From Tricholomella constricta (lineage: Eukaryota; Basidiomycota; Agaricomycetes; Agaricales; Lyophyllaceae): 64,000 bases of DNA. The stretch is from contig JAACJP010000011.1 of NCBI GenBank assembly GCA_013368375.1, positions 124,001 through 188,000 of the forward strand. The letters are read 5' to 3'. The notes beneath the pieces are model-generated. The model had not been told where the DNA came from, ran no database searches, and saw only the letters and a program-made list of their open reading frames with translations. Position 1 is the first letter of the stretch. Each line of letters begins with the position of its first letter. A program made the position numbers and the translations under genes. Positions 1 to 23,401 of the stretch are shown one piece after another.

Positions 1-2877
1 GCGTTGTGCACATCAACGGAATCCACTACATCCCTCTGGTCTTCTGCACTTGCCATGGCCAGTCAATGGTCACTATTGACCTAATGCATGCCCGCTTGAT
101 ACCCACAACATTCACTCGGTACACAACACTCTTCACAGCTGGCGTTTTGGATGACTATCGATTGGCAAACCTGGAATGTAAAGCATCAGCTTTTCAGTAT
201 TGGCAAAAACTTAGTCGTGCAACGGCCGCGGCGACGAACAGCGCGGACATTGATAATTTTTATCGTGAACTGCGGAGGCTTTCTCGTTCCTGGAGGTGGT
301 TGAAGAAAATAAAGTGGGCTGGCTATGGACATGAGAAAGATGATCCAATGAACCCTGTCGCGGGTGATCTTGCAATTTTTTGCCCCGCATGCCCTCAGCC
401 CGAGGTCAATCTACCCACTGACTGGAAATCTGACCAGAACAGGTACTTCCACCTGATTTCTTCCATAAAGTTAAGCATTTTAACAGATTGGAACACAGGA
501 AAGTCTACATTCGGTCTTTTGTAGCAGATGGAAATTTCAAAGCAGACCATGTTCGCCAGCCAAACGCCGCGGCTGATGTATGGTTATCAGAGGGGGGAGG
601 AATGATGGCCAAGAGGGAGGATTATCATGAGTTTTTGAAGACAGCATTCAACAAACTCACTGTAAGTCTATTTGGTTATGCATCGCCGCGGCACTGATTA
701 CCTTGTCCGTGGCAGAAAGCCCCATGTGAAAACCAATTTCGTGTTTTGGAACAAGCATTGCTGACTTCCAAGGCTTGTGATGTGACGGGGATTGTTGCCG
801 TTGCATGCGCCCGTCATGGTTGCTTTGCACCCAACAGCCTTGCTAACCTTTATGCTGGCGAGCAACAAAAGAATGTAGACTGGTCTCTTCTACAGGCAAT
901 CAAAGCAACCAATATGACTGACATCGAGGTGCTTCTTTTTATCTACGACATCGTTTGCCAGTACATCATCCACCTTGATGATCGCATCGGACCCTCCCTT
1001 CCCCCTCAAATGATAATTGACCGCGCTATTGGCCTTATGCATGTCCATGGCCACAAGCCTGACTGTTTCTTCCGCTTTGCATCATCTTTCATCCCTGGTG
1101 CCGCGGTTGTTGCTGGAGAAATCCTAGAGAGCTTATGGGCCGTCCTTAACACCGTCTCCCCCATGACTAGGACAGCTACTTTGGCCCATCGGGCAGAAAT
1201 TCTGGACGACCACATGAATGATTCAAATTGGAAGAAGTTGCTTGACATGTGTGAGTAATAATGGTCTTACCGCGGTGTGTTGTATGCCGCGGTCATGTGT
1301 TGACTCCTAATATTTCTCTAGCCGCGGCATTATGTTCGAGATTCCGTCGAGCTACTGAAACCAGGGAAAGTGCCGACCTATATTATGATCAAATGTGTAA
1401 TGGAGTTCCGGTTGAGCAGATTGCTGAGTGGGTTGCAGAGATTGAAGAAGCGGAGAGGGAAAGGCTTAACGATCCCAAGGCCATGGACATTCTGAAGGCA
1501 CGCACTACAGCCATCGAACCCCGTGAAGAGTCACCAGAGGTCATGGAATGCTTAACACTTGAAGAACAGTGGATCCAGCTAGGAATTGACCTTCAAGAGC
1601 AGCAGTTAGTCTTTTGCATTTTATGTTGAACATCATTCTGACCTGATGTGCCAGGACTAGCCTTCAGAATAAAGTGAAGAGGTTGGTGCGGGAGCCGCGG
1701 GAAGAGGACCGCAAGGCAGTGGAGGCTGAAAGAGCACGTCTGCATACGCAGATTAACGTCTTCACAGCATTGCAAGCCCGCACGGGACATCATCATTCAA
1801 CCCCAGTCATTCCAGATGACCCTCCCGATGACATGTTTGACTACCTGGAAGATGATGAGATAGAAGGACAGGGTGACCAAGGGGAAGGGGCGGCAGGTGC
1901 AACGGAAAGAGGTGAGATGAATACCGCGGCACCAAATACCGCGGCACCAAATGGCGGGAGTGGCGAGATGAATACCGCGGCACGAAATGGTGGCAGTGGC
2001 CGAGCAGGAGCCGTGGGGAGTGGCCCAACCACAACCAATGCCGCGGGTAGAGCCAACCCTGCTGAGGCAGATGACCCAGTCATTGAACCTGAAAGGACCC
2101 CCCTCTTCCTGCCCTCGGTCAACAATTCTGCAATCATCTCCCCTCTGGCAAGCCTTGAATTGAAATTTCGCAAGCTGCAAGCAGAGAAGTTGCTGACGAA
2201 CCTCCGGGAAAGCATTGCCGAGAAGTCATTCCTATACTCTCATGTTATGCGTATTGCTCCGCGGAAGGCTGTTCGTACACGCTCCCGTGTCACCATCGTC
2301 AAGCTCAACACCACTCTCAATACCCTTTGTCAGTCATATGGGAAGTGCAGAGCTGCTATGGTTCGCCTTCACGCAGATGAAGCTACATTGGACAAGTACA
2401 AAATCTTACTCAGAGAGCACATCAAGGCTAGCACAGCCATATTGGATCCTAACATACCTGGTTCCACAACACTTCGGTTGTCTTGGATTTGGCAAACTGG
2501 CAGCCAGGCCTCTGACAGTCCTGAAGCTCTTTTGGAATGTAGGTGTCATACTGGACGTCACCTAGCCGCGGCAATGTTACTAAATTCACTCTTCACCAAT
2601 AGATCAAAGGGTCCATTTCTTACGTGCACGCGCTCAAAAGCATCGCTGGAATGAGGAGTACATATTAGTGGGATATGAAATGACCTGGACTACACGGTAT
2701 TTCCTTCATCAGATGAAAACTTGGAAAGACCGCGGCAATGCCGCGGATGCTGCGAGTAAAGCCGGTGCAGCTGCCTATGCCAAGCGAAAGGCAGCTATGT
2801 GGTACCGCCTTGCATCTTCAGCAGAGGAACAATTTAAAAGGGTGAACACTGCATACCTCACACTTGTCATTCAGTAG
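1..2877 (+). CDS. KDZ transposase of element A (5' partial)
   Basis: Cut-and-paste type transposase with an RNase H fold, expected to act in the nucleus on the element's ends. Proposed exons are 3-442, 499-661, 716-1250, 1322-1604, 1655-2538 and 2603-2877. They sum to 2580 nt (860 codons) with no internal stop, and every junction is GT-AG and aligns with the element B homologue. The KDZ catalytic signature is visible in order: the Asp of VADGNF (exon 2), the Asp of YDIVCQY and the Glu of GEILESLW (both exon 3). The N-terminal CxC2 cysteine cluster expected from the homologue lies left of the window. CCGCGG occurs in both exons and introns. No lesion was seen, so this is the more intact of the two transposases here. 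Confidence 0.9.
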
Positions 2878-3331
2878 CAATATTTGAAGATTTGAATACA
2901 GACCAAGTTTTTGACCAAGAAATTTGAAGCGACACCGCGGCATACTACATTATCTCTAGGAACTCATATTGCAGCCAGGGCACCGCGGTGTGCCTGCACA
3001 TTGTCACAATTGAAGGTCACACCGCGGCCAGGGTGGCTTCAAGTAGCACCGCGGCACCACCAAAAAGTAACACATGGGGCCGAGCCACCATGGTGCTTAG
3101 CCCATTATTAGATACAACACAACATAACCATCGTCACTAAGAAAGGGATATGAATTACAGCTCACGCACCGCGGGCCGCGGTGCCAGCTCTCACTCTATA
3201 AATATGCCAGCTCTCACTCTATAAATAATGTGAATGGCCGGTTGAAATTCCGATCATTGTCACGCTCTTCTGTCAGTGTCACACATTCATCACAACTTGT
3301 TATCTGATCCCAATCCTCCACAAAAACATTC
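2878..3331 (+). promoter_or_regulatory. Intergenic region upstream of the companion gene, with duplicated TATA-like block
   Basis: 454 bp separate the transposase stop from the next start codon. The stretch holds six CCGCGG sites, two of them overlapping near 3168-3176. A 21-bp block ending in CTATAAAT is duplicated at 3183-3203 and 3206-3226, about 110-145 bp before the ATG. These are plausible TATA boxes for the gene at 3332. Promoter function is inferred from position only. Confidence 0.45.
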
Positions 3332-4993
3332 ATGACTCTCCAGCCATTAGATTCTATGGATTTCTCCCTGGGCACTTACAATGTCCATGGTGCTCACATA
3401 CAGGAGGTCCTCTTCTACTGTGAATCTCGCTTCCGCAAAGCCCTGGAGATATACAAGAAAGAGGAACAGGATGTTCAGCAGTGGATGCAGCCGCGCATTG
3501 TTCAAGAGCTTGTGCGTATTTGTGACATCACATCACGTGTTGTGTGACTGATGTGATCAACCCAGGATTTTGCGCTGGGATATGTTGGTGCTGCCGCGGC
3601 AATGATGGTCCCATGCGAGATTCCAGATCTCATTCGCCTCCTAGCCTGCAACCTTTTCCTGTTGTCCCACAATCTCACGGACACATGGCAACTATCTCCC
3701 GAGTTGCAGCTGGAGCTCGAGGCATCGGTGAACATTGATTATCCCACAGGTCCAGTCAGCGATTATTCCTGTGACTGGTGGAGCTTCCCTTTGGACGATG
3801 ACGCACGGCAAGATTTTAACCGGTTTACCATCAACACATGCTTGGATACCCATCGTGGATTAAAGCCGGACTCTGCAAAGACCTGGGTTCCCGCGGCGGT
3901 CCCGTCTAATCAAGCCAGCCGCGTCGTCAATGACATTCGGGGTCAAACACAGGGATATACCAGCATCTTTGGATCACGCATGGATTTGATCATGCGCCGT
4001 GCCGCGGCATTGCACAGCATGAATGAGGCCGCGGTCCAAAAGGAGAACACCGCGGGTGCAGCAGAAACCACTGACCTCACTGCTAAAGAGGTCAAGGACA
4101 TCTTTGAACCAGGGACCAATTCAGGTCCTCTGGGAACTGACTTTGGTGATCTGGCCTCAGGATCCTTGAAGTGGGAGGACTCTTCTGATGGCACCCATTC
4201 CCCCTCCAGTGCGCACAGATTTGATGCCATTGGCACCGACATCATCCAGCCACGTAGCCTGGAAAGCCCAGAAATACCCACCCATTTCGAGCAACAACCC
4301 CTACGAAGCTTCATTGACGATGTGGAGCCATACCGCGGCTACTACCATAGAGATCGGTCTCCTATCATTGTAACTCCTCTCCCAGCACACACCATGGCAT
4401 CCCCAGAGCAGGCAGCCGTGGCGCCCCCACACTTGGACGCCGCGGCATCACGAAAGCAGACCGCCGCGGCATCCTCCATCGTTGCGTTGGAGTTGTCAGA
4501 TGATGAGGACAAGGAAGATGAAGCGACATCCCTTCCTATGATCCTGCTCAGCGATGATGAGGAATCAGTCCCCATGATTGTGCTGACTGATGATGACGAA
4601 ACTCTCCCAATGATTGTGCTTAGCGACGATGAGGATCAAAGTCCAGCCATTCCACAACTTGAGCTAAGCAGTGATGATGAGCCTTCCACGGGCATTGTCC
4701 TTGTAGATGTCTCTGATGATGAGGCAGTCGTTGCAGTGGATTTGAGTGATGACGAGGTTCAGGATGTCCGTCGCCCCGGCACTGGGCTGCCCCATTTGGA
4801 CCTTGACAAGCTGCTTGCCTTTGACGACGGTGATATCCCAGACACGGTGGAGCATACCGCGAGCGGTTCCACTCGTATTCAGGTACCGCATGGCCCTTAC
4901 ACGCCATCATCATTTGCACACATTCCTGATTCAATCCTCGCAGACGACATGGAAATGGAATTCAGCGAAGACAGCGAAGAAGAGGAGGAATGA
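3332..4993 (+). CDS. Acidic KDZ companion protein with SUMO-interaction-like motif array
   Basis: Two exons, 3332-3511 and 3566-4993, give 535 aa with no stop; the intron matches in position and phase that of the element B homologue (10556-12628). No known enzymatic domain is recognised. The N-terminal part (HIQEVLFYCESR) and the C-terminal block (SSFAHIPDSIL) are conserved between elements. Residues about 366-458 hold at least six repeats of a hydrophobic strand followed by acidic residues, such as MILLSDDEE, MIVLTDDDE, MIVLSDDED and AVDLSDDEV. These fit the SUMO-interaction motif pattern ([VIL]x[VIL][VIL] next to S/T-D-D-E). The protein ends in an acidic tail. It lies 3' of the transposase on the same strand in both elements, so the pair is conserved. 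A SUMO-binding role is inference. A start at 3356 is an alternative. Confidence 0.82.
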
Positions 4994-5109
4994 TTAGAAT
5001 GATGTTGTCCTGTCCCCCGATCCCAATTTTTTTTGCAAGCATATTATTGTGTATAAGAAAATGATGATGGCTACATGTATTCCCTCTGGCTTGAGTCCAA
5101 TAGATCCAA

Positions 5110-6470
5110 CATAAATAGTATCATGCATGCCGCGGTCCGCGGCACCAAACGACCACCCGCTACACTGGGCAGCCCAATACACTGTATTATGCATGCCGCG
5201 GCAGGGCTAGATTGAATCTCATGCCGCGGCACCAACTGATGTACCTGCAACGGACCCGCGGGCCCCGTCCCACACGATAACTTGTACCCCCGCTACACCG
5301 TGCAGCCCGATACACTGTATTATGCATGCCGCGGCAGTGCTAGATTGAATCTCATGCCGCGGCACCAACTGATGTACCTGCAACGGACCCGCTGGCCCCG
5401 TCCCACACGATAACTTGTACCACCCGCTACACCGTGCAGTCCGATACATTGTATTATGCATGCCGCGGCAATGCTAGATTGAATCTCATGCCGCGGCACC
5501 AACTGATGTACCTGCAACGGACCCGCGGGCCCCGTCCCACACGATAACTTGTACCCCCGCTACACCGTGCAGCCCGATACACTGTATTATGCATGCCGCG
5601 GCAGTGCTAGATTGAATCTCATGCCGCGGCACCAACTGATGTACCTGCAACGGACCCGCTGGCCCCGTCCCACACGATAACTTGTACCACCCGCTACACC
5701 GTGCAGTCCGATACATTGTATTATGCATGCCGCGGCAATGCTAGATTGAATCTCATGCCGCGGCACCAACTGATGTACCTGCAACGGACCCGCTGGCCCC
5801 GTCCCACACGATACCTTGTACCACCCGCTACACCGTGCAGCCCGATACATTGTATTATGCATGCCGCGGCAGTGCTAGATTGAATCTCATGCCGCGGCAC
5901 CAACTGATGTACCTGCCACGGACCCGCTGGCCCCGTCTCACACGATACCTTGTACCACCCGCTACACCGTGCAGCTCGATACATTGTATCTCACGCCGCG
6001 GCACCCAAAACGAGGTATTTTCAATACCTGCAACAGGCCCGCTGGTGCCATGCAACGGACCCGCTGGCCCCGTCCCACACGATACCTTGTACCACCCGCT
6101 ACACCGTGCAGCTCGATACATTGTATCTCACGCCGCGGCACCCAAAACGAGGTATTTTCAATACCTGCAACAGGCCCGCTGGTGCCGTGCAACCCGATAC
6201 ATTGTACCACCCGCTACACCGTGTAGCCCGATACATTGTATTATGCATGCCGCGGCAATGCTAGATTGAATCTCATGCCGCGGCACCACCCGCGATGTAC
6301 CTGCAACGGACCCGCTGGCCGTCCCACCGTGCAGTCAGATACATTGTATCTCACGCCGCGGCACCCAAAACGAGGTATTTTCAATACCTGCAACAGGCCC
6401 GCTGGTGCCGTGCAACCCGATACATTGTATCTCATGCCGCGGGGCCGAACGACGTACTTTCAACACCTGC
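5110..6470. repeat. Subterminal tandem repeat array of element A (about 133-138 bp units)
   Basis: Units begin near 5221, 5354, 5488, 5621, 5755 and 5889 with a 133-134 bp period. After 5960 a variant unit of about 138 bp follows (5992, 6130) and then a more divergent part to about 6470. Every unit carries one or two copies of the 10-bp palindrome TGCCGCGGCA or a close variant. The array lies between the companion gene and the right terminus, the usual place for transposase-binding subterminal repeats. Open frames that cross it on the minus strand are products of the repetition, not genes. Confidence 0.9.
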
Positions 6471-6785
6471 AACAATCATCAATGCCGCGGTGGGGCAGAA
6501 CTGGTCCTCTCCGATACCTTGTACAAACCCGCTGCACCGTGCCATCCGCTACACTGTATCGTGCATGCCGCAGTGTCCATTGTATCGGGCCTGTTGGTGC
6601 AGACCAGCGGGACCCGCTGACACCGTCTGAGTGGATACAGTGTATAAGGCCCGCTGCACCGTGAGCATTGATACGATGTATGAGGCCCGCTGGAGCCACA
6701 GCGGGCCCGCTCGTTCCGTCAAACACACTACATGTATTGGCCCTGTGGGCCGTGGGACACAATACACTGTGATGCCTCTATGTGG
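6471..6785. repeat. Right terminal region of element A
   Basis: This stretch matches the right end of element B at about 70% by eye. Shared blocks in order are CCGTCAA, CTACATGTAT, GGACAC, TACA-TGT and TGCCT(C/G)TATGTG. The retrotransposon sequence resumes at about 6786. The conserved outermost block suggests that the element end read inward is CACATA(G/C)AGGCA. Repeated CCCGCTG motifs fill the rest. Confidence 0.7.
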
Positions 6786-8030
6786 CGACCCGTCCTTCTT
6801 CTTGATGAAGAAGACCGGCGACGCCATGGGCGACTTGGACGGCCGGATGCGACCTGTCTCGAGGTTCTCCTTGAGGAACGCGTCGAGTTCGACCTGTTCT
6901 GCCGGTGAGAGCGGGTAGACCTTCGTGCCCGTCGGCGACGCGCCCGGCTCCAGTTCGATGGCATGGTCCCATTGCTTGCGCTCTGGAAGCTCATCGAATG
7001 CGACTTTGGAGAAGACATCTTCAAAGTCGTGGAGGTGGGTCGGTACTGCGTCGCGGAAAGTTCTGGGCACGGAGTTAGCAGCGTGCGCTTCCGCAAGTCG
7101 CTGCGATGTCGTTTGGCTGGCCCGAATATGTCCGGCGGTCGGAGTCGGATGGATCGCGGTCGCGAAGATGCGATCGCCACTCAGGAAGGTTTCCACCAGG
7201 AAGTCGTCAGACTCTGGGTCAGGTTCCTCCAGGATCGGGGTGTAGGGGAGGAACTCCTCCTCATCAGAGTCGTCCTCAACATACGGGTTGGTCGGGGCTC
7301 GCAGGTCGGGCTCAGTCATTGGTATACCGTCGGCTCGACAGGCGCGGATCGCTGCGCGCACTTTGGTGCGTGCGCGCCGATCGGCTTTGACCTCGTCCTG
7401 GCAGGTGCCGCACTGCGTCGGACAGCGACTCATCTTCACCTCCTTGGTCTCCCAGTTGATCTCGGGGTTATGGTTTTTAAGCCAGTTGAACCCGAGGATC
7501 ATGTCTTGCTTGCCTAACTGGGTGACCCCGAAGACGGCTCATTCGGTATGACCGTTGTATCGCAAGACAGCTTCTACGATGCAAGAGACCGAACCGCCTT
7601 CGTTGAGAGTGCCGTCCACATTGTAAACCGGGGATGGCCGACTAAGCACCCTGGTCGTGAGCTTGTGTTTCTCGACGAAAGCGACATTGAGAAAACTGCC
7701 GGTCGCTCCGCTGTCCACTAGGGCAGTGACGGCATGCGACTCCTGGGTGTCGGTGGTCTCCAGTTCGACGTTGAGCCACAGGGATCTGGGGCAGGGGGAG
7801 GCAGCGGCGATGAAGCGACTAGGGAGTCGCTTTTCCCAGCGGGGTAGGCCACGACACGACGGGGCGATCGGCTTTGCGACTGCGATCGGTGTCGTCGGGT
7901 CGGAGGGGTTTTGTACGTCTTTGTCGGTCGGTTCACTTGTCGGAATAGCAGCAATATTAGGTGTATTGGCGTATTCTACGGATAAAGGAGCGAACCGATT
8001 ACGACTAGACAACGGGGGCGTACGTTCCAC
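6786..8030 (-). pseudogene. Ty3-a pol fragment: protease and start of reverse transcriptase
   Basis: Read on the minus strand from 8030. The aspartic protease motif ALVDSGATGSF is present, followed by the RNase-H-fold-proximal linker (QDMILGFNWL) and the RT entry region (SPVFFIKKKDGS), where element A cuts it off. A TGA at 7539-7541 interrupts the frame between the protease and linker halves; it is consistent with CGA to TGA. The catalytic RT core is absent from this fragment, so it cannot be functional. Confidence 0.85.
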
Positions 8031-8041
8031 CCGTTGTGTAA

Positions 8042-9161
8042 TTAAAAACCCTCCTCGGCGTCGGAGGTGGTCGCGTCGGCCGACGATGGAGTCGGGTCGG
8101 CGGGGACTGCGTCCTTGCGAGCTAGACGTTCCATGATAAGCGCCTCCAGCTCATCATCGAGCATGTGGCGCACGTCCCAGCGCAAAGGGCAGTCACGAGA
8201 GTAGTGACCCTTTTTCTTGCACCGAAAACAGTGGTCGTCGGCAGGCGCGACTCGATCGCGCATCCGATCTACGTCCATTGGGATGCCCTGGGGGATCGGC
8301 CTGGGGGCTGGTGCGGCAGGAGCGCGGGGGGCGGGGGGAGCGGGAGCGGGAGCGGGAGCGGGTGCGGTAGCGAACGCCCATCGTGCGGCTGCGGTGGTGG
8401 GCGGGCGGCTGTCGGGCGCCTTTGTCGGGACCATCCGACGGTGGAAGTCGTCCTCCGACCTCATGATGAAATCTTGAGAACGAGCGATCCTCAGCCACTC
8501 CTCAATCTTCTCGTCGTGCGGGCGACCCGTGGTGATGCTTCCGAGTCGCCTCGAGAGCTTCGGGTCCATTCCCCGACGGAATTTGAGGACCAGGTGACGC
8601 CCATCTGGGTAGCCCGCCTTGACCCACAGGGATCGGAACGAGTCGATGTACTCGTCGATCGATCGACCGTTCTGGAAGTACGCCGTCGACTCCAGGATGA
8701 GCGCGGCATCGGCGACCTCGTCGAAGAGGAAGAACTCGCCACGGAAGGTGTCTTCGAAGTCCTTCCAGGCGGGAAAGACGTCTTTGGCGGTTCCGAACTG
8801 GAACACCCGACTGACGAAGTCGGCGGCTCGCCCGTGCTGCATGTACGACAGCACCCATACTATTCGGGCGTGGTCGTCGGCGAAACTTCCCCCGCACAAG
8901 GAGAAGTAGAGCTTGCAGGCGTTCAAGAACGCACGACCGCCCGATCGGGCGCCGTCGTAAATGGGAGGGGGCGACGGTCGGAGGTGGTGCGATCCCGATC
9001 GCGGAGAGCCTGGCAGCGGGGTGGTCGTCTCAGGCGGCGGGGGGGTCGTGTCTGCTTCGGGAGCAGCGGGGGTGGGATTGGGGGGTGTCCCCGACATGAA
9101 TTTTTCGAAAAGAGCGGAGAGGCGGTCCATAGAGGCCGAGTTGGAGGTATTGGAGGCAGAG
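8042..9161 (-). pseudogene. Ty3-a gag (N-terminus replaced by element B)
   Basis: Retrotransposon capsid-type protein with a Pro-rich N-terminal part (TPPNPTPAAPEADTTPPPPE), a capsid segment and one CCHC zinc knuckle (CFRCKKKGHYSRDC) near the C-terminus. The open frame appears to continue to 9220, but bases beyond 9161 belong to the inverted repeat of element B. Comparison with the copy at 57694 shows that the natural N-terminus has been lost. The pol frame starts 11 bp downstream. Confidence 0.85.
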
Positions 9162-9390
9162 TACAATGTAGCGTGTCCTACTGTCCAGCGGGGCCATACA
9201 TGTAGCCGTATTGACGGCACCAGCGGGGCCGCTGGAGCGCCAGCGGGGCCACTACATGTAGCCGTGTTGCACGGTACCAGCGGGGTCTCTACATGTAGTC
9301 ATCTGGCACAGTTCCAGCGGCCCCGCTGGTGCTACAGCAGGGCTAATATGCAGCGGGGTAGGGGGCCAGCGGGGGATTGCCCACGTCTGC
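9162..9390. repeat. Left terminal inverted repeat of element B
   Basis: Begins TACAATGTAGCGTGTCC and matches the reverse complement of 23161-23388 with about five differences in 229 bp. All five are A/G or C/T transitions. It contains the palindrome CTACATGTAG more than once (near 9252 and 9291) and many CAGCGGGGCC blocks. The outer ~13 bp present on the right side (TGCCTGTATGTG) are missing here. Confidence 0.9.
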
Positions 9391-10060
9391 GGACCTCTGC
9401 GGGTTGCCTTTTTGGGGGCTAATACAGCGGGCCTATATGAGCCAGCGGGGGATTGCCCACGTCTGTGGACCTCCGCGGGTCGCCTTTCTGGGGGCTGATT
9501 GCCCACATCTGCGGACCTCTGCAGGTCTCCTTTGTGGGGGCTGGTATGGGGTATTGCCCACATCTGCGGACCTCCGCGGGTCGCCTTTTTGGGGGCTAAT
9601 ACAGCGGGCCTATATGAGCCAGCAGGGGATTGCCCACGTCTGTGGACCTCCGCGGGTCGCCTTTTTGGGGGCTGGTATGGGGCCCACATCTGCGGACCTC
9701 CGCGGGTCTCGTTGTTGGGGGCTGGTATTGCCCACGTCTGCGGACCTCCGCGGGTCGCCTTTTTGGGGGCTGGTATGGGGGATACCCACGTCTGCGGACC
9801 TCCGTGGGTCACCTTTTTGGGGGCTGGTATGGGGGATTGCCCACATCTGCGGACCTCCGCGGGTCGCCTTTCTGGGGGCTGGCATGGGGTATTGCCCACG
9901 TCTGCGGACCTCCGCGGGTCACCTTCTTGGGGGCTAATACAGCGGGCCTATATGGGCCAGCGGGGGATTCCCCACGTCTGCGGACCTCCGCATGGGGGAT
10001 TGCCCACGTCTGCGGACCTCCGCGGGTCGCCTTTTTGGGGGCTAATACAGCGGGCCTATA
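9373..10060. repeat. Left subterminal array of element B
   Basis: About a dozen tandem units of variable length. Each has the core CTGCGGACCTCCGCGGGTC followed by a GGGGGCTGGTATGGGG-type or GGGGGCTAATACAGCGGG-type spacer. Each intact unit carries one CCGCGG; several units carry CTGCGG, CCGTGG or CCGCAG instead, as expected from C to T decay. It is the mirror image of the right array at 22813-23165. Confidence 0.9.
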
Positions 10061-12628: not shown

Positions 12629-12890
12629 TGTGTTTGCCTTGGAGAGTCGATAAGAGATCGGATAAGGGGGAGAAAAGAGTAGTTGCCATAGTTACATAAT
12701 TGACAGTTGCTTTCCCACCATCATGTGATTTGACTGCACACGTGCATCCTGCAACATCCACGGACATCATTAGGCAAAGCACATCATGTTCAACGGGTCA
12801 TGTCATCCGCGGACTTGGTTGTTGTCACCCCGCGGACACAATCATTGATCATTCCATTCCATTCTGCACGGCATTGATGATCATTCCATT
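12629..12890. other. Spacer between transposase and companion gene of element B
   Basis: 262 bp, presumably the promoter of the companion gene on the minus strand. Contains two CCGCGG sites (near 12809 and 12831). A short repeat ATTGATCATTCCATTC-like block is present near 12844-12890. No coding signal was seen. Confidence 0.5.
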
Positions 12891-15800
12891 CTATGCAAGC
12901 AATGCTACATATGATTGATTTACTTCTTTAAATCGTTGCTCCGCCAACCAAGCAAGTTCCTTCCACATGGCTGTCTTCCGCCGTGCATATGCTGTCGGGC
13001 CCAGTTGTCCTGCAGCCGCGGCCTCCGCACCGCGCTCTATCCAGATCTGGGCCTGATGAAGGAAATATCGGGTGGTCCAAGTCATTTCATATTGAACAAG
13101 AGTGAATTCTTCTGTCCATCGATCCTTTTGTGCCCTTGCCCTCAAGAAATGAACACGTTGAACTATTGGTATCATGTCAGTAACAACTCCGCAGGGTTGA
13201 CGCCAAAGAACATACACTCCAGCACAGCCTCCGGACTATCTGTCGCTTGACCAGGTATTTGCCAAATCCAAGAAAGACTGGTACTTCGGATATCAGTTGA
13301 GCCCGGAGTGTTGGGATCCAGTATGGCGGTGCTCGATTTCACATGCTTCTTGTCAAGAATTTTGTACCTTTCCAGTGTGCCTTCATCTGCACCCAGACGG
13401 ACAAGCTTTGCTCTGCATTTGTCATACACCCGACAAAGGGTGGTGATTGTGTAATTGAGGGCGGTGATGTTACCCCGCGCGCGCGCGTCACCACACCCTT
13501 CCGCGGAGCAACTCGGATGACGTGTGAGTACAAAAATGATTTCTCCGCAATTGCATTGCGGAGGTTCTGCAGATGGCGCTCTGCTTGAACCTTGCGCAAT
13601 GCAAGCTCAAGTTTAGCCAGATGTGTCTCAGTTTCCCCAGCTGAGGATGGCAGGCAAATAGGTGTCTGCTCTGGTGGTAGGGGTCCGTCTGTTGCACTGA
13701 CAGGACGGGAGCGTGTTTGTGCTGGCACCGCGGCGTCTCCGGAGGGTGGCAGGTCCGCGGGGTTCTCGTCTAGGTTGTCAAAGGCTTCGACGTTCACTGG
13801 CACATCCTCCGCGGAGGCCGAAGGAATGAAGTTTATGCTCAGCTGTTTTGATGTGAACACATCAATTTGTGCACGTAGGCTTTGCCTTTCAGTTTCGACG
13901 GCCTTGCGGACATCTTCCCGCGGCTCGCGCACAAGTTGGCGGACTTTGTCTTGAAGGCCAATTCTAGATGGAAACTGTTCAGCTCCGGAAGACAAATAGA
14001 GATAAAATGTCTTACTGACGCTCCTCAAGATCAAGGCCTGATTGTATCCACTCCTCTTCAGCTGTTGAGTGTTGCACAGATCCATTGGAATCTCTCAGCT
14101 GCCCAATGTCCGCGGTGCGCGCTTTGAGGATGTCCATAGCCTTGACATCATGAACCCTCCTCCGCTCGGCCTCCTGGATCTCCGCCTCCCAAGTTGTGGT
14201 TTGTGTGCGGCTTATGCCTGAAGCGACACCTTTGAAATATTCTTGAGCAGTCTCCAACATCTCTGTCGCCTTTTCGTATGTCCGACACAATGTGACCGCT
14301 ACTCCGCGGCCGCGGACATGGTCAGTTATCATAACGGAATAGATGAAATTTTACTAACGCATCTGCAGGAGTTTCTTCCAGTTAGAATCATTCATATGAT
14401 CGTCCAGGATCTCCGCTCGGTGTGCCAATGTTGCGGTTCTGGTCATTGGTGACACAGTGTTCAACACGGCCCACAAACTCTCCAGAATTTCACCCGCAAC
14501 TATAGCAGCGCCTGGAATGAATGAAGTTGCAAAGCGGTTAAAGCAATCATCTTTGTGACCGTGAACATGGAGTAGTCCGATGGCCTGAGCAATAGTCATT
14601 CCTGGGGGGAGTAGGTGGCCGATGCGCTTCAGAAAGTGTACCATGTATTGGCAGGCAATATCATAGATCAATAACACCTGGTCAATGTCTTCCACATTTG
14701 TTGTTTTAAGCGCCTGGAGGAATGCCCAGTCCACATTCTTTTGCTGCTCACCCGCGTGGAGGTCCGACAGACTGTTGGGGGCAAAACAACCATGCCGCGC
14801 ACATGCAATGGCTACAATTCCTTTAACATCACAGGCTTTGGACACAAGCATTGCCTGCTCAACAGCGCGGAACTGATTCTCGCAAGGGGCTTTCTAAAAT
14901 ACAGGTTAGCACAGAACGCCGCGGGGTTGATGAACCCCGCGGACTACGCCGCGGAGGTGATCGGACTTGACTCACTGTCATCACATTGAATGCTTCCTTC
15001 AGGAACTCATTATAATTGGCCCGGTTAGCCATCATACCTGACCCTTCCGACAGCCAAACATCCATGGCATTGTTCTTTTGGCGAACATGATCCGCTTTGA
15101 AATTGCCATCTGCGACAAAAGACCTCATGTATACTTTTCTGCATATAATGTTAATAACAATGATCAATCGTCACCAAATGCACTCACTTATTTGGGTCCG
15201 CGGACCACCCCGCGGGGAGATTGACACCTGGCTGTGGACATGTGGGACAAAAAATGGCGAGCTCCCCTGCAGTGGTCTGCATTGGATCTCTGTTATTGCT
15301 GCCAAATCCACCCCATTTGAGCTTCTTCAGCCATCTCCATGAACGCGAGAGCCGGCGGAGTTCGCGATAAAAGTTGTCGATGTCTGCGGAGCTCGTTGCT
15401 GCAGCGGTAGTCCGGCTGAGTTTGTGCCAATACTGAAATGCAGATGCCTTGCATTCCAGGTTCGCAAGACGATAATCATCGAGGACTGCAGTGGTGAAGA
15501 GCGTATTGTATCGTGTGAAGCTAGCAGGCACCAATCGTTTGTGCATCAGGTCTGTATTGACCTGGCTGACTCCGCGGCATGAACAGAAGACAAGTGGAAT
15601 GTAGTGAATTCCATTGACATGTACAATGCGCACATAACGATTGTTGAATGCGTCGTGCCGTGGCATTCTCGCCGGAAGGTCATCATCAACACCAGTGTCA
15701 TCGTCATCTTCCTCGTCCACTTCGACTTCAACTGTGTCCAGATTAGACCCTGCCTCAGCAATCGGATGAAATTCTGGCTGTTGACCATAAGCACGGCTCA

Positions 15801-16601
15801 AGCGCGCCATATAATCATTGTCCGCTGCATCATAGGAAGTCTGATCAGTCATGTCCGCGGGGTCCGCGGGGTCGTTTCGCTGCTCTGTGCAGTGGTTCTT
15901 CTGTTCTTCATCGTCGTATTTCACCTGGTAATTCTCCAACTGCTCCTGTTGTAGCTGTAGTGTATCACAGAGTGCTTTCTCGGAGGAGTGGTGGGGGACC
16001 AGCAAGTAGGTACCAACCTCCTGCAGCTGAGCTGCCTGGAAGTATTGACCTGTCCAGAACTCAATGCGATGGAGAGGATTGTCCCTGTGAGTTGTCCGCA
16101 TGCAACCCCGGCAGAGTATCCTGTCACTGAGACAGTCTCGACAACGCCAACGTCCATAGTTGCCCTTGGGACAATCAGAACATTGAGTTTGATTCTCAAT
16201 GTACTCTCTCCCAAGTAGTCCCTCCAACAGTTCTGGAACGTGGTTCACAAATTCTTGAAGGTAATCACCTTGTGTCTGTGCTGTGATTCAGTTACATGTA
16301 CACACTACTTCAAAGAACAATTCACCTTGCCCCGTTTGGGGGCCACCTCATCAGTGGTGTCATTCAGGTCTGCTGAGTGAATGTCCGAATGCTCAAAGGG
16401 TTGGACATGGGTCTGCACACCCTGAGGGACAGATGTAGCAGGGTCCGGTGACCTCTTGCGCAAGGGGACACTCCTGGATTCCACGATGTCACCCCTCTGG
16501 GTATGCCTGACTGTTGTCTCGACATCCATGGCATATGAGCGAGAACTTTCCTTAAGGACTTCATCCTTCTTGCGACGTGTGCGCTTTACTGCACGCAACA
16601 T
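12891..16601 (-). pseudogene. KDZ transposase of element B with CxC2 cysteine cluster (one frameshift)
   Basis: Proposed exons on the minus strand are 16601-16326, 16275-15188, 15138-14976, 14893-14359, 14298-14016, 13963-13216 and 13162-12891. They sum to 3365 nt, two more than a multiple of three. The surplus is explained by a (CG)6 run at 13476-13487, where the frame shifts by one dinucleotide relative to element A. The N-terminal part carries the cysteine-rich CxC2-type cluster (CSDCPKGNYGRWRCRDC, then CRGC). The KDZ triad is present: Asp of VADGNF, Asp of YDIACQY, Glu of GEILESLW. Apart from the frameshift the protein would be about 1,120 aa. It is likely inactive in this copy unless the shift is corrected by slippage. 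Confidence 0.88.
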
Positions 16602-16857
16602 GGTGGGTAAGGATGAGATCTGATTTGGTGGAAAAATCAGAACCTGTCTACTGATGTATCACTGATTACTCTCGGACATGTCCTCATGGTTGTGCAAAGG
16701 TCAGCTGCACTCATAATCGGGGCCATTGATGTACCCGTGCCTCATATTACCCAAACTGGAAACTTCCTTGCCAAATGCGGGTACTGTGGGACAACTGTCA
16801 AGCGTGGAGTTCAACACTTTTAGACCCAAATAGGAAATTTTGTAACGGAGCTCCACC
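16602..16857. promoter_or_regulatory. Divergent promoter region between transposase and gene 3
   Basis: 256 bp separate the divergent start codons of the transposase (minus) and the gene at 16858 (plus). There is no exact CCGCGG in this gap, unlike most other parts of the element, although TTCCGG-like and CGGACA half-sites occur. A shared bidirectional promoter is inferred from geometry only. Confidence 0.45.
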
Positions 16858-19131
16858 ATGTCCGAAAATATTTTCACACCGGAAACAGTCACACATGCCC
16901 CCGCGGCCCTGAAGAAGACAAGTAAGGGGCCCCGTTACCCGGCTGACGAGCGCGCCGTCCTCAACAAGTACCGAGAGGAGTACCGGTCAGAGTCGGACCA
17001 GAAAAAAAGGGCGGCCATTTTCAAGGACAAAGTCTTGGTTGATATTTATAACTTCTGGAAGGCAAAGGGAACAGAGCCCAAGACCGCAAAGAAGTCTGCA
17101 TCAGCTACCATGGTCCGTCAGGCTAGAGTGTGTATCTCTGTGTCATCACACTGATCAGCATACAGAAACTGGCAGATTGGGTGAGGAACAACTGGAGGCC
17201 CTACCCAGCATATAACCAGTCATCGGGTAATTTGAAAGTTACTGTGCGCCAGGTAGTCAATCGGACAATGCGCGGCTTGATTACCGAAGAGTTGAAAGAG
17301 ATACTGGAGGAGGTCGATGAATCTCCCACCGCGGCCTTCCAGCAACACAACAAGGCTTTGGCACGGGTGATGAACAAACTCACTCCGCAACAACTCCAGG
17401 AGGCAGAGGCCACTGCCCGTGAGTGGAGCACCAAGGGCTTTCCTGCTGAGGAGCAGCGCAAGTGAGTGACTCCGCGGGGTCCGCGGACATCTCGGAGTTG
17501 ATACCTTCTTATCTCAGGAATGCGGATAAGCGGGGCTTTCAACGAGTGGAGAATGAGGATGCCAACAGGTGGCGAGAGATGGGCATGCTGTCCCTTACCT
17601 TTGTGGTATGGAGAGGGCAAGATGGGCAACTGAGTGTCCGGTCGTGAGTTGTTCATCGACTCCGCGGGCTTGTGCTGATGTCCGCCGCGGAGCAGTCATG
17701 ACAGCATTGCAGCAAATGCAGGAGCAATCAGCAAAACTTTCATTGATACCTTTCCGCACATGGTAAAGGACTTCAAAAGAAAGCTTATGGACTATGTCCT
17801 TTCACTCCAAGAATCCATTGCACCAGACCCCCTGCATCAGACTGATACAGTAATTCAGCCACGTCCAGATCTACAGCTGGATCAACAAAATGATGGTTTT
17901 CCAATTCTACCGGAGTTGGTAGAAGGTGTGCAACAGAGCAAAGATGACCTTGAGCTTCTGGTCCGCGCATTCCTGAAACATCATTACAGTACGTGATAAT
18001 TCTTTGATATCATATCAGACCTATCCTAATTTCCTTACAGAACTAGCATCGGGACACCTCTACTCATCCCCTCCATTCACTTCCATCAAAGCGGACAATA
18101 GAATGTTCATCCCCGCGGAGTACGTTCCCACGGACATCCAAATTCAAGACCCACGGAACCTCCGACTACATGAACTCCGGGAGTTGCTCGACTTCTGGCG
18201 AAAGCGCCAGAAGAGGCTTGGACCCTCAGAGACCTTTCGCTGGTCCAGTTACTTGAACAAGAAAAAGGAGAGAACGGAGGCGGTCTACGGGGCGCGCAAG
18301 GACGAGGAAGCTTTGGCTGCCGCGGCAGCAGCAAAGAAAGCAAGGCGGAAGAGGGGCAAAAAAAAAGCACCAGCTCTGGACCCCTTAGAAAGCCTTATTC
18401 CAATGTCGGACCTGGAAGGCAGTGACGGCGAACACAGCAGTCCAGCACCAGATGAAAACCAACATCCGACACCCCTGAGATTCAATCCATTACCGGATAA
18501 CGAACCCCGCGGACCACCCGATGAACTCGCAGAGCACTATCAGAATCAATCACAAGATAATGACCCTCACGGACTACCCAACAGACCCCGCGGAGCACCC
18601 ATCAAACCCCGCGGAGCACCCAACGAACCCTGCGGAGCACCCAACGAATCCAACGAACCTGGAGAACAGACTGACGAATATGGTCCCCATGACCGTCTTG
18701 AACCAGACCCCATGACTAATCAAAGCCTGGTCAGAATTGACGAAGCAACAATGCACCGCTTGAATGCCCGCGGACTTCCGACACAGGCACCCATCAATGG
18801 GCCTGGTGAAGGGCTGCCAGAGTACATGGTGCTGGCAACTGCAATGCAGCTCCTCAACGAGGTAACTCCGCCGCCCAACACTCCTACTCCCTCTCTGCCG
18901 AATACACCAACTCCGCCCACACCTCCGGTTACACGCAAGCGCAAGCAGGTTGAAGGACAGATGACTAAGCGAAAGAAATCAAAGCAGGATTTACTGCTTG
19001 CGGAGGCCGCGGACTTTGGTGTCAGTACCACCAGGGGTAGCCGCACACGCAATCAAACCATGACCCGAGCTGCAACATCCAAGTCCGCGGGGCCTAGCAA
19101 CAGGTCTAAAAGAAGCACAAGGCGCCGCTAG
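16858..19131 (+). CDS. Element B gene 3: unknown, basic C-terminus
   Basis: Proposed exons 16858-17127, 17166-17461, 17518-17643, 17696-17988 and 18041-19131 sum to 2076 nt (691 aa) in frame with GT-AG junctions. No family is recognised. Residues 1-95 form a charged helical region (PADERAVLNKYREEYRSE), then a conserved-looking WV-NNWRP segment follows. The middle is Pro- and Asp-rich, with 21-bp tandem repeats at about 18585-18650 giving PRGAPxxP units, each built on CCCCGCGGAGCACCC. The last 70 residues are strongly basic (KRKKSK, KRSTRRR), suggesting nuclear import. CCGCGG lies in exons and in introns 2 and 3. It could bind DNA or chromatin, but nothing in the sequence proves this. Confidence 0.8.
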
Positions 19132-19345
19132 TTTACTGTTTTCTCATCAGTTATAATTGTTGACAGCTCATTGGTAATTCATTGATCACAATGTTCAAAA
19201 AAATTGTTTTATTGTATATACTTTTCAATAATGTGGCAGTATATACACTACAAGTTGCTAGTGCTTTGCTATCATACATATTTGTTCAGTAAAGAAAACA
19301 GATATTTGAAGGAAGTCCGCGGGGTGTTCGGAAAGTCCAAGCCAC
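19132..19345. other. Convergent 3' region between genes 3 and 4
   Basis: 214 bp, AT-rich, between the stop codons of two convergent genes. It probably holds both polyadenylation regions. One CCGCGG sits at about 19317. No gene seen. Confidence 0.5.
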
Positions 19346-21599
19346 CTAGGCTGAATTGTGCTTTTTGGAAGGCCCTCCACCCTCATCCGCCGCCTTGCGT
19401 TTTGTGCCTCGCGAACCTTCCTCTGGAGCAGGTGACCCCTCAGGACTGAGCCGCGGAGACGGAGTGGCAGGGCCCGCGGGGCCCGCGGATCCTTGTGGGG
19501 TGGGCGGAGTCACCTGGAGGGTGGGTCCAGCTGGGGTCGACGCAGGCACAGTCGGGCTCCAGGCCGGTGGTGAAGGGGTGGCGAGAGCGGGGGTGGGCAC
19601 AGGGGTGGTGGGCACAGGGGTGGCTGGAGGTGGAGGTGGAGGGGTGGCTGGAGGTGGAGGGGTGGTGGGCAAGGGGGGCAGAGGGGTGGAGGGAGGCGGA
19701 GTTCCCTCAGCCGCTGACTGGGGTGAAGACGGAGGCAAAGGCGGATCTTGAGCGGACTCTGCGGGCCTGCGCGGAGGAGGCGGAGTTGCTTGCGGAGGTG
19801 CTTGCAAATCCATGTTCTCTATGTTGAGGGCGGCCATGTCCGCAAACAGCTCCGCGGCCAGCTCCGTGGGAAGAGGTGCTTGCACCTCTAGCATCCGCAC
19901 ACGCTTCTGCAGGCCCTGCACCTCGACTCCCTGACGCTGCGCCTCACCCAATACCTCCCTCCCTGCCAACTCCAGCTCCCGCTGTGCAAGTACAAGCTCT
20001 GCAGCCCTAAGGTTGATGAGCTCGCACTGCATTGACCGCCTCTTGTCCCGCTTCAGCACCAATTGCACGCTGACCTCCAGGTCTGACATCCGCTCCCGCA
20101 AAGTGGTATTTTCTGCGGTCAAGGTCGCAAGCCTGGTCAGGATCGCCGCGGGGTCAAAGTCCGCGGGGAGCGCGGCAGCGGACGGGAAGTGGGTGGCTAC
20201 AATGGTCTTCTTTAGCAAAGTGATGAAGAGAAGAAAAAAGACTTACAAGGCCTCGCGGGGTTGAAGTCCGCGGAGGGCGCGGCAGCGGACCTGGGGTGAG
20301 TGGCTACAAGTATATTTATTAGCAAAGTGATAAAAAAATGGATGGGAACTTACAGGGACCCGCGATGTTCTCCTTTGCCCGCTTGACCTTCGTTGGCTTT
20401 GGCCCCTTCCTCGGAATGCCTGGTGAGAAAACACAACTCTGCTTTGCAAACTTGCATGGAAAGCAGGCTGTTGCCTTCCCACCCTGTATCCTGCACGCGA
20501 GATTCCTCATTGTGCATTGTACACAGGCGGGGTCATAGTTTCCGTGGTCGACCGCGGACATCGCTCGGAATTCGTTGTCGCTGTCGTCCCGGTCCAAGTC
20601 CTGGAACGACTGCACCACCTTGCCCTTTCCCTTGTCTGCGGCGGAAGGCAAGGGGTCCGCCGCGCGGATACGGTGCTGTTCTGTTGTGTTGGGAAAGATC
20701 AGTGTCAGACTAGGTAATGCAAAAATGAAAAACTCACCGGGTTGAACGCCCGCGGCCTTGACCCCCGCGGACCCATCCACTTCCCTCTGCTTTCCCTTCT
20801 CCTTTCTTCTCCTCTCTGCCTTCTCCGCCCTCTCCTTCTCCGCCTTCAACGCCACGGCCCTCGCTTCCGCTTCCACAGCCCTCACCTCTGTGGCCCTTGC
20901 CTCCGCCTCTCTCTCTTTGGCAGCCCTCCTCCGGGCGGCCTTCTCTGCTCTCGCTCTCTCCATCTCCTCCCTCTCCCTCTTCTCCTTTTCCTCCCTCTCT
21001 ATTTCTTCCTCTAACCTCTGCTCCTCAGCCCATTTGGCCTTCCTCTTCTCCCGCCTTGCCTCCGCGGCCTTCATCTCCTCTGCCATTTCCGCGGCCTTTC
21101 TCCTTGCCAGTTCCATCGCCCGTTTCCTTGCCTCCTCGGCCTCCGCGACCCTTGCTGCCCACTCTGTGGCGGCCCTTGACGACTCCGCCTCCGCGGCACT
21201 CGCTGCCGGCTCCGCGGCACCCGCTGCTGACCCCGCGGCACCTGCTGCCGGCCCCGCGGACCCCGTTGTCTGCTGTTGGCCCTGGTGAGCACGCACAATG
21301 TCCAGAAGTTTACCCATTAGCTCCTTCGTGTTTTCCCCATGCGAGATGTCCTGGATTAGCCGGATTGTGGCAGCAAGGAGGGAGGCGTGCCTGGCCCGCA
21401 TAACCTCCGGGGTGGTGCTGGCCTTGACCCGCGGCCATAACTTTTTCTTATTTTCTAATGGTCAGTGATTGGTTAAGATAGAGAAAAAAAAATGTACCGC
21501 TGTTTTTTTGTACAGCGCAGTCAGCGCCGGGACATCGCCGTTTTCGACGGCCTTGACAATGTCGTTGTCGATCGCGTTCAGAGCCGTGATGTCGGACAT
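19346..21599 (-). CDS. Element B gene 4: Zn2Cys6-type zinc cluster and coiled-coil protein
   Basis: Proposed exons on the minus strand are 21599-21498, 21440-20738, 20680-20354, 20303-20247 and 20196-19346, in sum 2040 nt (679 aa), exactly in frame. Domains in order: Ala-rich segment, a long charged coiled coil rich in Glu, Arg and Lys (about residues 100-245), a six-cysteine cluster at about residues 321-351 with spacing C-x2-C-x6-C-x9-C-x2-C-x6-C, a basic linker (PRKGPKPTKVKRAKE), a second heptad-like region (about 400-470), a Pro-rich tail and a C-terminal KRK motif. The spacing fits the fungal Zn2Cys6 DNA-binding domain, whose dimers bind paired CGG triplets. Basic residues are sparse in the first half of the cluster, so DNA binding is inference. 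Exon 4 is a duplicate of the start of exon 5 together with its intron. It is a strong candidate reader of the CCGCGG sites. Confidence 0.85.
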
Positions 21600-21804
21600 T
21601 TTGATGCGCGGAGGGCGGTGTTGCGGACTTAGATTTGGGAGTGGTGGCGGGCAGATATGGGAGGGCAGAAGAGTTCCGCAGGAGTTGAAAATTCTCAACA
21701 TGGTCACGTGCAACATCCAATTATATCTCTCTTACTAATTGTTCCCCGTTGTTCCAAAAGATTCTTATCACGTGCTCTGATTGAAGATCAACCAGACCAT
21801 AAAG
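21600..21804. promoter_or_regulatory. Divergent promoter region between genes 4 and 5
   Basis: 205 bp separate the start codons of gene 4 (minus) and gene 5 (plus). No exact CCGCGG is present. A CACGTG-like TCACGTG occurs twice (near 21703 and 21768). Bidirectional promoter function is inferred from gene arrangement. Confidence 0.4.
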
Positions 21805-22413
21805 ATGGCCTTCTTCAACAGACACAGACCCATACAAATGAGCGCCATCAACCCATCGGAAAGTAACTCCGCGGACACCGCGGACATGCGACCTACTCCG
21901 CTCCGCGGATATGTTGTGATCAATTCCAATGGCCGGGAGTACCTTGTGCCACAACATCTGGCTGCCATAACGGAGCAGAAGCTCCTAACTGAAGCTTTGA
22001 AGGAAAAAGAGCTGAAGAAGGCCAAGGCTGATCCTGGAGTAAGTGATGGAATTGCTGCTCATTCATTGAAGGGATAGCTAACATAAATTGAGTAGCCAGT
22101 GAAGCACAAAGACGGAGGGTTTCTGACTCTAGCCTCTGGTTCTGTTATAATCCCCGCGGACCCCGTAAGTCTTTTTATGCACACCTTGTTTACAAAACTA
22201 ACAGTCATTTATTAGCCAATGACACAGCGAGAGCTCCTTGGTCTCCACGCTGAAATCAAAGCTTTCCAGCAACTTCACAACGTATCCTATGCTTCCGCGG
22301 CTCGTCAGCTGTATCTGGCAGAGGTCGCCAAACTTAACAGCCTGCAAGTTGCTCTCGGTGCCTTCCGTACCATCCGCAATGAAATTGATGGGCCTCAAAT
22401 GGGTGATACGTAG
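21805..22413 (+). CDS. Element B gene 5: small protein of unknown function
   Basis: Exons 21805-22038, 22096-22164 and 22216-22413 give 166 aa; a start at 21841 would give 154 aa and keeps the same frame. No family recognised. The protein has a hydrophilic N-terminus, a segment YLVPQHLAAITEQKLLTEAL that looks helical, and a helical C-terminal half (TQRELLGLHAEIKAFQQLH). CCGCGG occurs in exons 1, 2 and 3, for example as CTCCGCGGACACCGCGGAC near 21868. It is divergent from gene 4 and is the last gene before the right array. It might be a structural partner of the zinc-cluster protein, but that is a guess. Confidence 0.72.
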
Positions 22414-22812
22414 AGGACATAGTTTGGTACAGTTCTGCACTTCTGTCATTAAGTACTTGTGCAACAATGTGTGATTACATGCAATTAATTACATTACTGT
22501 GATTAGTAATCCCCATAGACGGAGGCCCGCGGACATATATTGATCCGCGGATGTTGGTATGGCCTGAGGCCCGCTGCGGTGCTGCGGGTGCCTCCAGAGA
22601 CAACGACCCGCGGACATGTATGTCACCGCGGACGTGCCTGCCCAGGCCCGCTGCAGTGCTGGGAGTGCACCACAAACTACGACATGTATTGAACTGCGGA
22701 CGTCGGTAATGGCCCGGCCAGGCCCGCTGCGGTGCCGGGGGTGCCTCTAGAGAATGACCCGCAAACCCTCACCCTGCCGCCGCTGACAGCACCATATAGG
22801 CCCGCTGTATTA
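22414..22812. repeat. Non-coding right subterminal DNA of element B
   Basis: Contains three diverged copies of a block GGCCCGCTG(C)GGTGCTG..GTGCC near 22570, 22648 and 22722, plus four exact CCGCGG sites (22528-22630), often as CCCGCGGACATGTAT or similar. No gene seen. Confidence 0.65.
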
Positions 22813-23165
22813 GCCCCCAAAAAGGCGACCCGCGGAGGTCCGCAGATGTGGGCAATACCAGCCCCCAACAACGAGACCCGCGGAGGTCCGCAGATCTGGG
22901 CATCCCCCATACCAGCCCCCAAAAACAAGACCTGCGGAGGTCCGCAGATCTGGGCATCCCCCATACCAGCCCCCAACAACGAGACCCGCGGAGGTCCGCA
23001 GATCTGGGCATCCCCCATACCAGCCCCCAACAACGAGACCCGCGGAGGTCCGCAGATCTGGGCATCCCCCATACCAGCCCCCAAAGACAAGACCCGCGGA
23101 GGTCCGCAGATCTGGGCATCTCCCATACCAGCCCCCAAAAAAAAGACCCGCGGAGGTCTGCAGAC
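22813..23165. repeat. Right subterminal array of element B (54-bp units)
   Basis: Units start with GCCCCCAA at 22813, 22861, 22915, 22969, 23023, 23077 and 23131; the first spacing is 48 bp and the rest are 54 bp. Each holds GACCCGCGGAGGTCCGCAG or a one-base variant. Because 54 is divisible by three, long open frames run through both strands; these are not genes. Mirror image of the left array. Confidence 0.92.
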
Positions 23166-23401
23166 GTGGGCAATCCCCCGCTGGCCCCCTACCCCGCTGC
23201 ATATTAGCCCTGCTGTAGCACCAGCGGGGCCGCTGGAACCGTGCCAGACGACTACATGTAGAGACCCCGCTGGTACCGTGCAACACGGCTACATGTAGTG
23301 GCCTCGCTGGCGCTCCAGCGGCCCCGCTGGTGCCGTCAATATGGCTACATGTATGGCCCCGCTGGACAGTAGGACACGCTACATTGTAGTGCCTGTATGT
23401 G
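23161..23401. repeat. Right terminal inverted repeat of element B
   Basis: Reverse complement of 9162-9390 over 228 bp, ending CATTGTA at 23388. The next 13 bp (GTGCCTGTATGTG) match the outermost block of element A's terminus, so the true end is probably at about 23401. Ty3-b gag coding sequence follows directly. Confidence 0.85.

Follow-up and report, generated by a model that had tools for sequence, protein, structure and literature searches.

Plant transposons such as Ac and Spm have subterminal regions with many copies of a short word that is particular to the element and is read by one of its proteins. In Arabidopsis, the VANC proteins of VANDAL transposons act on targets dense in family-specific motifs, protein and motif coevolve, and motif density matters for localization (as described in parts of PMC5735166). 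In Kyakuja/KDZ elements, TET/JBP genes have been proposed to counter methylation (parts of PMC12730594). Here we describe two elements, A and B, in a stretch of 64,000 nucleotides (the window) from the fungus Tricholomella constricta, comprising positions 124,001 to 188,000 of JAACJP010000011.1 and forming part of contig C11; the analysis covers this one 44-Mb genome. Both are KDZ-type DNA transposons, each with a CxC2 transposase and a Zn2Cys6-like protein, and both are saturated with the palindrome CCGCGG. We propose, with a probability of roughly one half, that the Zn2Cys6 protein may coat its own element as a mark of self, mainly against silencing by methylation.

The nearest work-alike is VANC, but the two systems are unrelated. 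Both involve a transposon-encoded protein that binds DNA sequence-specifically (putatively so here) and a motif that is abundant within its own family but scarce elsewhere; in both, related families have different motifs, and terminal non-coding regions are included. The sites of Ac and Spm are confined to the ends, whereas the KDZ word is dense in the interior as well. The motifs of VANC have a single orientation, evolve through the formation of repeats and are found chiefly in tandem repeats outside coding sequence (parts of PMC5735166), whereas the KDZ word is palindromic and, in addition to forming arrays at the ends, is scattered across exons as well. The fold is Zn2Cys6-like, the transposon group is KDZ and the kingdom is another one; with a KDZ transposase the elements fall outside VANDAL/VANC, homology to VANC not having been searched for separately. 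VANC is reported to cause loss of methylation (same parts of PMC5735166), whereas for the elements described here we infer such a loss. Saturation of a whole element with a word is not described among the matches listed in literature on KDZ, on fungal transposons and anti-silencing, on transposon Zn2Cys6 proteins and on mushroom TET/JBP (including PMC8889193, in part). The main text of PMC12730594 has zero occurrences of “zinc”, and in the portions covered we found no mention of a saturating word.

The two elements, the fragment between them and their terminal repeats are arranged as follows.

1 to 6540, plus strand: element A, right part, continuing left to about C11:115543
5152 to 6474, no strand: A, terminal array of 134-bp and 81-bp units with GCCGCGGC
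C11:115543-116361: A, inverted array at the left end
6549 to 9161, minus strand: Ty3/gypsy-type fragment between A and B
9162 to 23388, minus strand: element B, 14.2 kb
9162 to 9420, no strand: B, left arm of the terminal inverted repeat, 259 nt, 96% complementary
23130 to 23388, no strand: B, right arm of the terminal inverted repeat
9367 to 10065, no strand: B, left subterminal array, unit of about 55 bp with CTGCGGACCTCCGCGGG
22793 to 23185, no strand: B, right subterminal array, 54-bp unit

An exact count gives 149 CCGCGG in the window, with 53 in A, 91 in B and 5 in the remainder (at 25340, 46347, 50131, 56185 and 60017), which bears out the saturation that a sequence-only reading had described. 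Over its whole length element A holds 114 in 15.0 kb. Against a Markov background, the yardstick that reading had proposed, the word stands far above orders 1 and 2, which predict 1.4 and 2.7 occurrences for A and 3.5 and 9.4 for B, while the remaining 43.5 kb of the window hold 5 versus 12-14 expected. Markov orders 3-4 give a higher expectation (29-80), which we put down to the CCGCGG sites themselves supplying those 4- and 5-mers. The words GCCGGC and CGGCCG, equal in composition and named beforehand as possible rivals in density, occur only 3 and 4 times over positions 1-24000 (2-kb bins). One-mismatch neighbors of CCGCGG number 0-3 each in A, except CCGCTG with 10, and up to 20 in B (CTGCGG, partly array-derived), and the other top GC-rich 6-mers of both elements mostly overlap a site and its flanks. 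The Ty3/gypsy-type fragment, an internal control, has no CCGCGG in 2613 bases.

An artefactual excess, caused by base composition, codon usage or repeated amino acids, was rejected on the order-1/2 Markov and equal-composition counts, which lie at background, and its probability is practically negligible. Although the arrays contribute further repeated sites, the density without them is still about 6 per kb (5.9 in the in-window part of A, 6.1 in the core of B). Coding and non-coding DNA are served alike, as had been claimed: six open reading frames (ORFs) in the interior of B hold 40 sites (6.7 per kb) and the remaining interior, where short exons may be included, holds 36 (5.4 per kb). A regular, nucleosome-like spacing of the sites was also rejected, the coefficient of variation of the gaps in B being 1.05 versus 0.98 for random placement; the gaps in A are slightly clustered (1.25).

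The enrichment recurs in related KDZ elements of the genome. Of the 26 loci fetched for close, B-type CxC2 copies, 24 (L006-L029) have CCGCGG as their most over-represented 6-mer; the other two are partial copies in which it occurs once (L034) or ranks second (L035). It is also on top at 29 of 30 loci of B-type Zn2Cys6-like genes (L036-L065, some overlapping; exception L056). Genome-wide, 967 pairs of CCGCGG lie no more than 30 bases apart, versus 197 for the reversed control word. Among the first 50 pairs listed, 29 are in or beside three B-type copies, 14 form one cluster and 7 are elsewhere. That cluster (C1:985112-1002738) has units resembling the terminal arrays of B, shows no CxC2 or KDZ match among the matches listed, and perhaps consists of non-autonomous derivatives.

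Comparison of copies indicates that the word is both rebuilt and retained. Aligned segments of A and B (3.0 kb, 67-82% identical, 68% in the longest) contain 11 A sites and 10 B sites at 17 distinct places, 4 of them common and 13 differing (two opposite gaps). Since only 4 of the 17 are common, saturation must have been rebuilt, beyond mere inheritance. With B as reference, 21 B-type copies keep CCGCGG at 288 of 324 places (0.89), whereas other 6-mers with two CpGs are kept at 1233 of 1679 (0.73), those with one CpG at 9670 of 13523 (0.72), GC-rich 6-mers without CpG at 1414 of 1883 (0.75) and the remainder at 42842 of 56810 (0.75); the copies are mutually related, and these counts are non-independent trials. 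Eleven representatives were drawn from the 21, with near-duplicates and three poorly aligned copies omitted. Five of them differ from B by about 6% and show a single change among 624 aligned site bases; six site-poor ones have 4 to 20 site bases changed each, 33 of the 48 changes being CpG transitions. A grouping of B copies into “intact” and “degraded” was discarded as circular, having been drawn by site count, and the ungrouped 288 of 324 is the test.

The reading frame tells a similar story. Sites had been said to occur in exons in different frames; all three frames are indeed used, but one frame, N-CC|GCG|G, which reads x-Ala-x, accounts for 42 of the 55 sites in eight ORFs (P = 8e-11 versus equal frames), leaving 7 read as Pro-Arg and 6 in the third frame. 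We think that the word is carried mostly where it does least harm to the protein, as alanine, and we are confident that selection acts at the level of DNA. Neutral drive, by biased gene conversion or repair that copies the word without benefit, would suit the many near-identical copies and the growth of arrays by unit duplication. However, conversion homogenizes and creates no single scattered sites, a protein-friendly frame is kept, and sites are conserved above controls across copies; we hold this explanation to be highly improbable.

A third family, clade C, has a CxC2 protein 53-55% identical to that of B and a different word. At its loci (L030-L033) CCGCGG is not the top 6-mer, its 8 occurrences being about the order-1 Markov prediction. 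Instead CCGG runs at 11.8-13.2 per kb in all five pieces examined (25 kb, four copies; 12.3 overall), versus 3.4 per kb in background; A and B have 1.9 and 2.7 per kb. Other short words of clade C are sparser (GGCC 6.3, GCGC 2.6 and CGCG 1.2 per kb), and the extended palindrome AANCCGGNTT has 22 strand-hits versus 0 in background. A retroelement inserted into the clade C copy on contig C66 has CCGG at 2.5 per kb. With flanks, the words are RCCGCGGY in A, YCCGCGGR in B and ANCCGGNT in clade C, the last fitting better than ACCCG, a candidate that was dropped; a purine before and a pyrimidine after the site are found in 62 of 82 A sites, and the opposite in 40 of 76 B sites. Judged from these sequences, the families most likely diverge by changing protein and word together. 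One clade C copy (L068, C20:62501-66500) also has an apparent array, seen by eye in or beside its third gene, with a unit of the ACCCGCAC/CACCCGCA type; an 8-mer of this array is found 30 times in L068 and L033.

Outside the sites, A and B are depleted in CpG. The observed/expected ratio is 0.62 in A and 0.64 in B versus 1.03-1.16 in neighboring DNA, the TpG/CpA ratio is 1.31 and 1.23 versus 0.94-0.99, and CCGCGG sites hold 29% and 23% of all CpGs of the two elements. This looks like decay through methylation, with the sites spared by selection or protection. It could be that a host protein shields CCGCGG, so that its CpGs survive while others in a methylated element decay, and both the depletion outside sites and the predominance of CpG transitions among lost sites would agree with that. 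Retention alone, however, is unlikely to produce a 10- to 40-fold excess over the order-1/2 expectation, the related clade C is rich in CCGG with CGCG depleted, and the retroelement that separates A from B lacks the site. We therefore consider shielding by the host very unlikely.

The genes of the two elements are these.

518 to 1228 (C11:124518-125228), plus strand: A, KDZ transposase domain PF18758, E 2e-39
1647 to 2654, plus strand: A, open frame, likely transposase exon, 7 CCGCGG, DNA similarity to B
3557 to 4993, plus strand: A, open frame, likely C-terminal exon, 8 CCGCGG
11427 to 12299, minus strand: B, open frame, likely C-terminal exon
13339 to 14094, minus strand: B, open frame, likely transposase exon
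14381 to 14896 (C11:138381-138896), minus strand: B, KDZ transposase domain PF18758, E 5.9e-35
15184 to 16287, minus strand: B, CxC2 cysteine-cluster exon of the KDZ transposase, PF18803, E 2.2e-18
17977 to 19131, plus strand: B, third gene, divergent from the other B genes
19346 to 20242, minus strand: B, likely last exon of the Zn2Cys6-like gene, with heptad-like and Pro-rich stretches and a KRK tail (by eye)
20319 to 21461, minus strand: B, first long exon of the Zn2Cys6-like protein, a charged stretch (coiled coil by eye) followed by the cluster
20433 to 20525, minus strand: B, Zn2Cys6-like cluster, CX2CX6CX9CX2CX6C

The PF18758 matches of A and B are both above cut-off. The CxC2 of B scores 66.8 bits against PF18803 (cut-off 27), and that of A is matched by the B protein at 55-63%. 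The two exons at 20319 to 21461 and 19346 to 20242 probably form one gene; GTAAGT donors are present in the intron region.

Zn2Cys6 domains follow the spacing CX2CX6CX5-12CX2CX6-8C. A gene with such a cluster is present in each of the three families, with CX2CX6CX8-10CX2CX6C across B, A and C, and the six cysteines are found at 29 of 30 loci homologous to the B protein, L039 being a piece without that part. A profile search of the PDB returned seven matches at E of 10 or less, all of them Zn2Cys6 proteins (best E 0.013), and nine of ten members match Pfam Zn_clus at E of 10 or less (best E 9.4e-5). The B exon found nothing at E 0.001 among 7990 scored candidates from a large protein collection whose fungal coverage was not established. 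The clade C cluster is 20% identical to that of B. Two more Zn2Cys6-like clusters (CDRC...C...CVDC...C) lie outside A and B, at window positions 34710-34811 and 59540-59641, both on the plus strand, in stretches with no excess of CCGCGG.

Zn2Cys6 domains read CGG triplets, and everted CCG/CGG triplets are a known Zn2Cys6 code; we know of no such code for CxC2. The yeast Zn2Cys6 factors Pdr1 and Pdr3 regulate promoters through few sites, and to our knowledge no yeast factor of this class is a transposon protein that saturates its own element. The word that Pdr1/Pdr3 are reported to recognize is CCGCGG itself, as CGG triplets in opposite directions (parts of PMC3091778). Since the domain class reads CGG triplets and these two factors reportedly read CCGCGG, the element-encoded Zn2Cys6-like protein is the obvious candidate, and sequence evidence makes it probably the reader of the word. 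The sequence-only reading had taken the sites for targets of an element-encoded protein. Their turnover at similar density and their better conservation than controls support this, and a gene matched to its family near most copies, together with the use of another word by the family whose cluster has diverged most, also fits predicted binding.

Searching for type A, B and C Zn2Cys6-like genes separately (upstream limit 26 kb, mostly 4-6 kb), we found one upstream on the same strand, of matching type in all 38 cases, at 25 of 32 B, 5 of 6 A and 8 of 10 C copies. At remote KDZ/CxC2 matches the same three queries found 0 of 43, although a more diverged gene would escape them; the copy lists were compiled from matches, the remote set includes fragments, and some elements were possibly counted twice. 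An alternative is that the KDZ transposase reads the word through CxC2, so that transposase is kept on the element along its length by the sites. Both elements have CxC2, which diverges with family (A and C 52-63% identical to B), but it is also found at remote copies where no Zn2Cys6-like gene was detected, and everted triplets are the known code of Zn2Cys6 domains (parts of PMC3091778). A CxC2 reader is accordingly unlikely. Six clade-C-type Zn2Cys6-like genes are unpaired with listed clade C CxC2 copies (C33:13684, C113:8973, C73:20039, C21:502435, C64:49153 and C61:36915), and are either fragments or further families.

TET/JBP genes show the opposite distribution. A PF12851 match is found no farther than 12 kb from CxC2 at 11 of 43 remote copies, 1.5-1.8 kb away in 10 of the 11, versus 0 of 10 in C, 0 of 6 in A and 1 of 32 in B, hence 1 of the 48 copies of these families; that one is a weak match 7.3 kb off and was not assigned to the element. 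These ten TET/JBP-like frames, below the Pfam cut-off but consistently placed 1.5-1.8 kb from remote KDZ copies, are at C14:695718, C29:75505, C56:85937, C50:58692, C22:2056, C27:160456, C42:50707, C67:69210, C33:248358 and C5:993067; six stronger matches are located elsewhere in the genome. Elements A, B and C resemble the TET/JBP-bearing Kyakuja/KDZ elements in transposon group, in carrying an accessory gene and in their likely opponent, cytosine methylation, but carry a Zn2Cys6-like gene. The two genes look like alternatives among the KDZ elements of one genome.

A mechanism can be proposed on this basis. The Zn2Cys6 protein, probably dimerized through its coiled coils, would bind CCGCGG as back-to-back CCG and CGG at some 100 sites spread over the element that encodes it. 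Such dense binding would mark the element as self and mainly keep host CpG methylation and silencing off it, at the cost of maintaining the word in exons, mostly as alanine; families would diverge through joint change of protein and word. About 100 randomly spaced sites through exons and introns suggest coating, since a promoter needs few. CpG depletion, together with TET/JBP in sister elements, would make protection from silencing the likeliest gain, and given a Zn2Cys6 reader we somewhat favor anti-silencing as the main benefit. The same reader might instead serve gene activation, the gathering of transposase (cis-preference) or copy counting, with protection from methylation a by-product. 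Zn2Cys6 proteins are typically transcription factors (PMC3091778 and PMC5559640, both in part), and dense sites in terminal arrays would suit a transposition complex, but binding at promoters or termini needs no near-randomly spaced sites across exons and introns. We give such other benefits a minor but appreciable chance.

Several observations weigh against coating by a Zn2Cys6 reader as a mark of self. At least four sites are changed in 6 of the 11 B-type representatives, yet 5 of the 6 site-poor ones keep the CxC2 frame open throughout (in the sixth, L026, the match falls into two parts), and a decayed copy, at C1:56941, holds 17 sites in 20 kb (L003, L004); full saturation therefore appears dispensable for persistence. 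Clade C is known from four copies, each in part, and CGGCCG is also raised there (40 versus 8 strand-hits). Between C copies CCGG is kept at 348 of 467 places (0.745) versus 1518 of 2203 for controls (0.689), a slight gain from which turnover of the word seems fast. Part of the preference of B for T before CCG is also seen at non-site CCGs, and B subfamily 5 is nearly without the purine/pyrimidine preference (R 0.43). CxC2, too, differs between families and is an alternative candidate reader. As to the domain, six Cys and one Lys are invariant in 10 of 10 compared, but these were selected by the six-Cys pattern, and the conservation of Cys is not independent evidence. The B domain scores 14.9 bits versus a Zn_clus cut-off of 21, and its predicted model is modest (predicted local distance difference test, pLDDT, 62), with no Foldseek match at E 0.001.

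The ends and the third gene of B complete the description. No target-site duplication of 6-10 bp was found at the ends of B; that of Kyakuja is 7 bp, and Laccaria Kyakuja is without the inverted repeats that B has (parts of PMC12730594). The third gene is without a Pfam family, and its counterpart in A was paired by eye (L002:6049-7248, minus strand). It is divergent to the Zn2Cys6-like gene, and by eye the third genes of A and B contain a similar block (in B, LHELRELLDFWRKRQ...FRWSSYLN) and a basic tail.

More broadly, and tentatively, self-labelling along the entire element, exons included, may have arisen independently in fungal KDZ transposons, in which a short palindromic address specific to each family and a matched Zn2Cys6 reader would diverge together and replace the TET/JBP demethylase of sister elements against silencing by methylation. 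If true, this would be an independent, non-plant case of sequence-specific anti-silencing by transposons, and one in which the word is visible in DNA alone, so that the specificity of the reader, the turnover of the word and its coding cost are directly measurable. The pairs of domain and target word would be natural material for the code of Zn2Cys6 proteins, the most abundant class of fungal regulators (parts of PMC10141177). Selection on transposon DNA would then act through its protein-coding sequence, and such labelling would go some way towards explaining the survival of fungal KDZ elements that lack TET/JBP in hosts that methylate their DNA.

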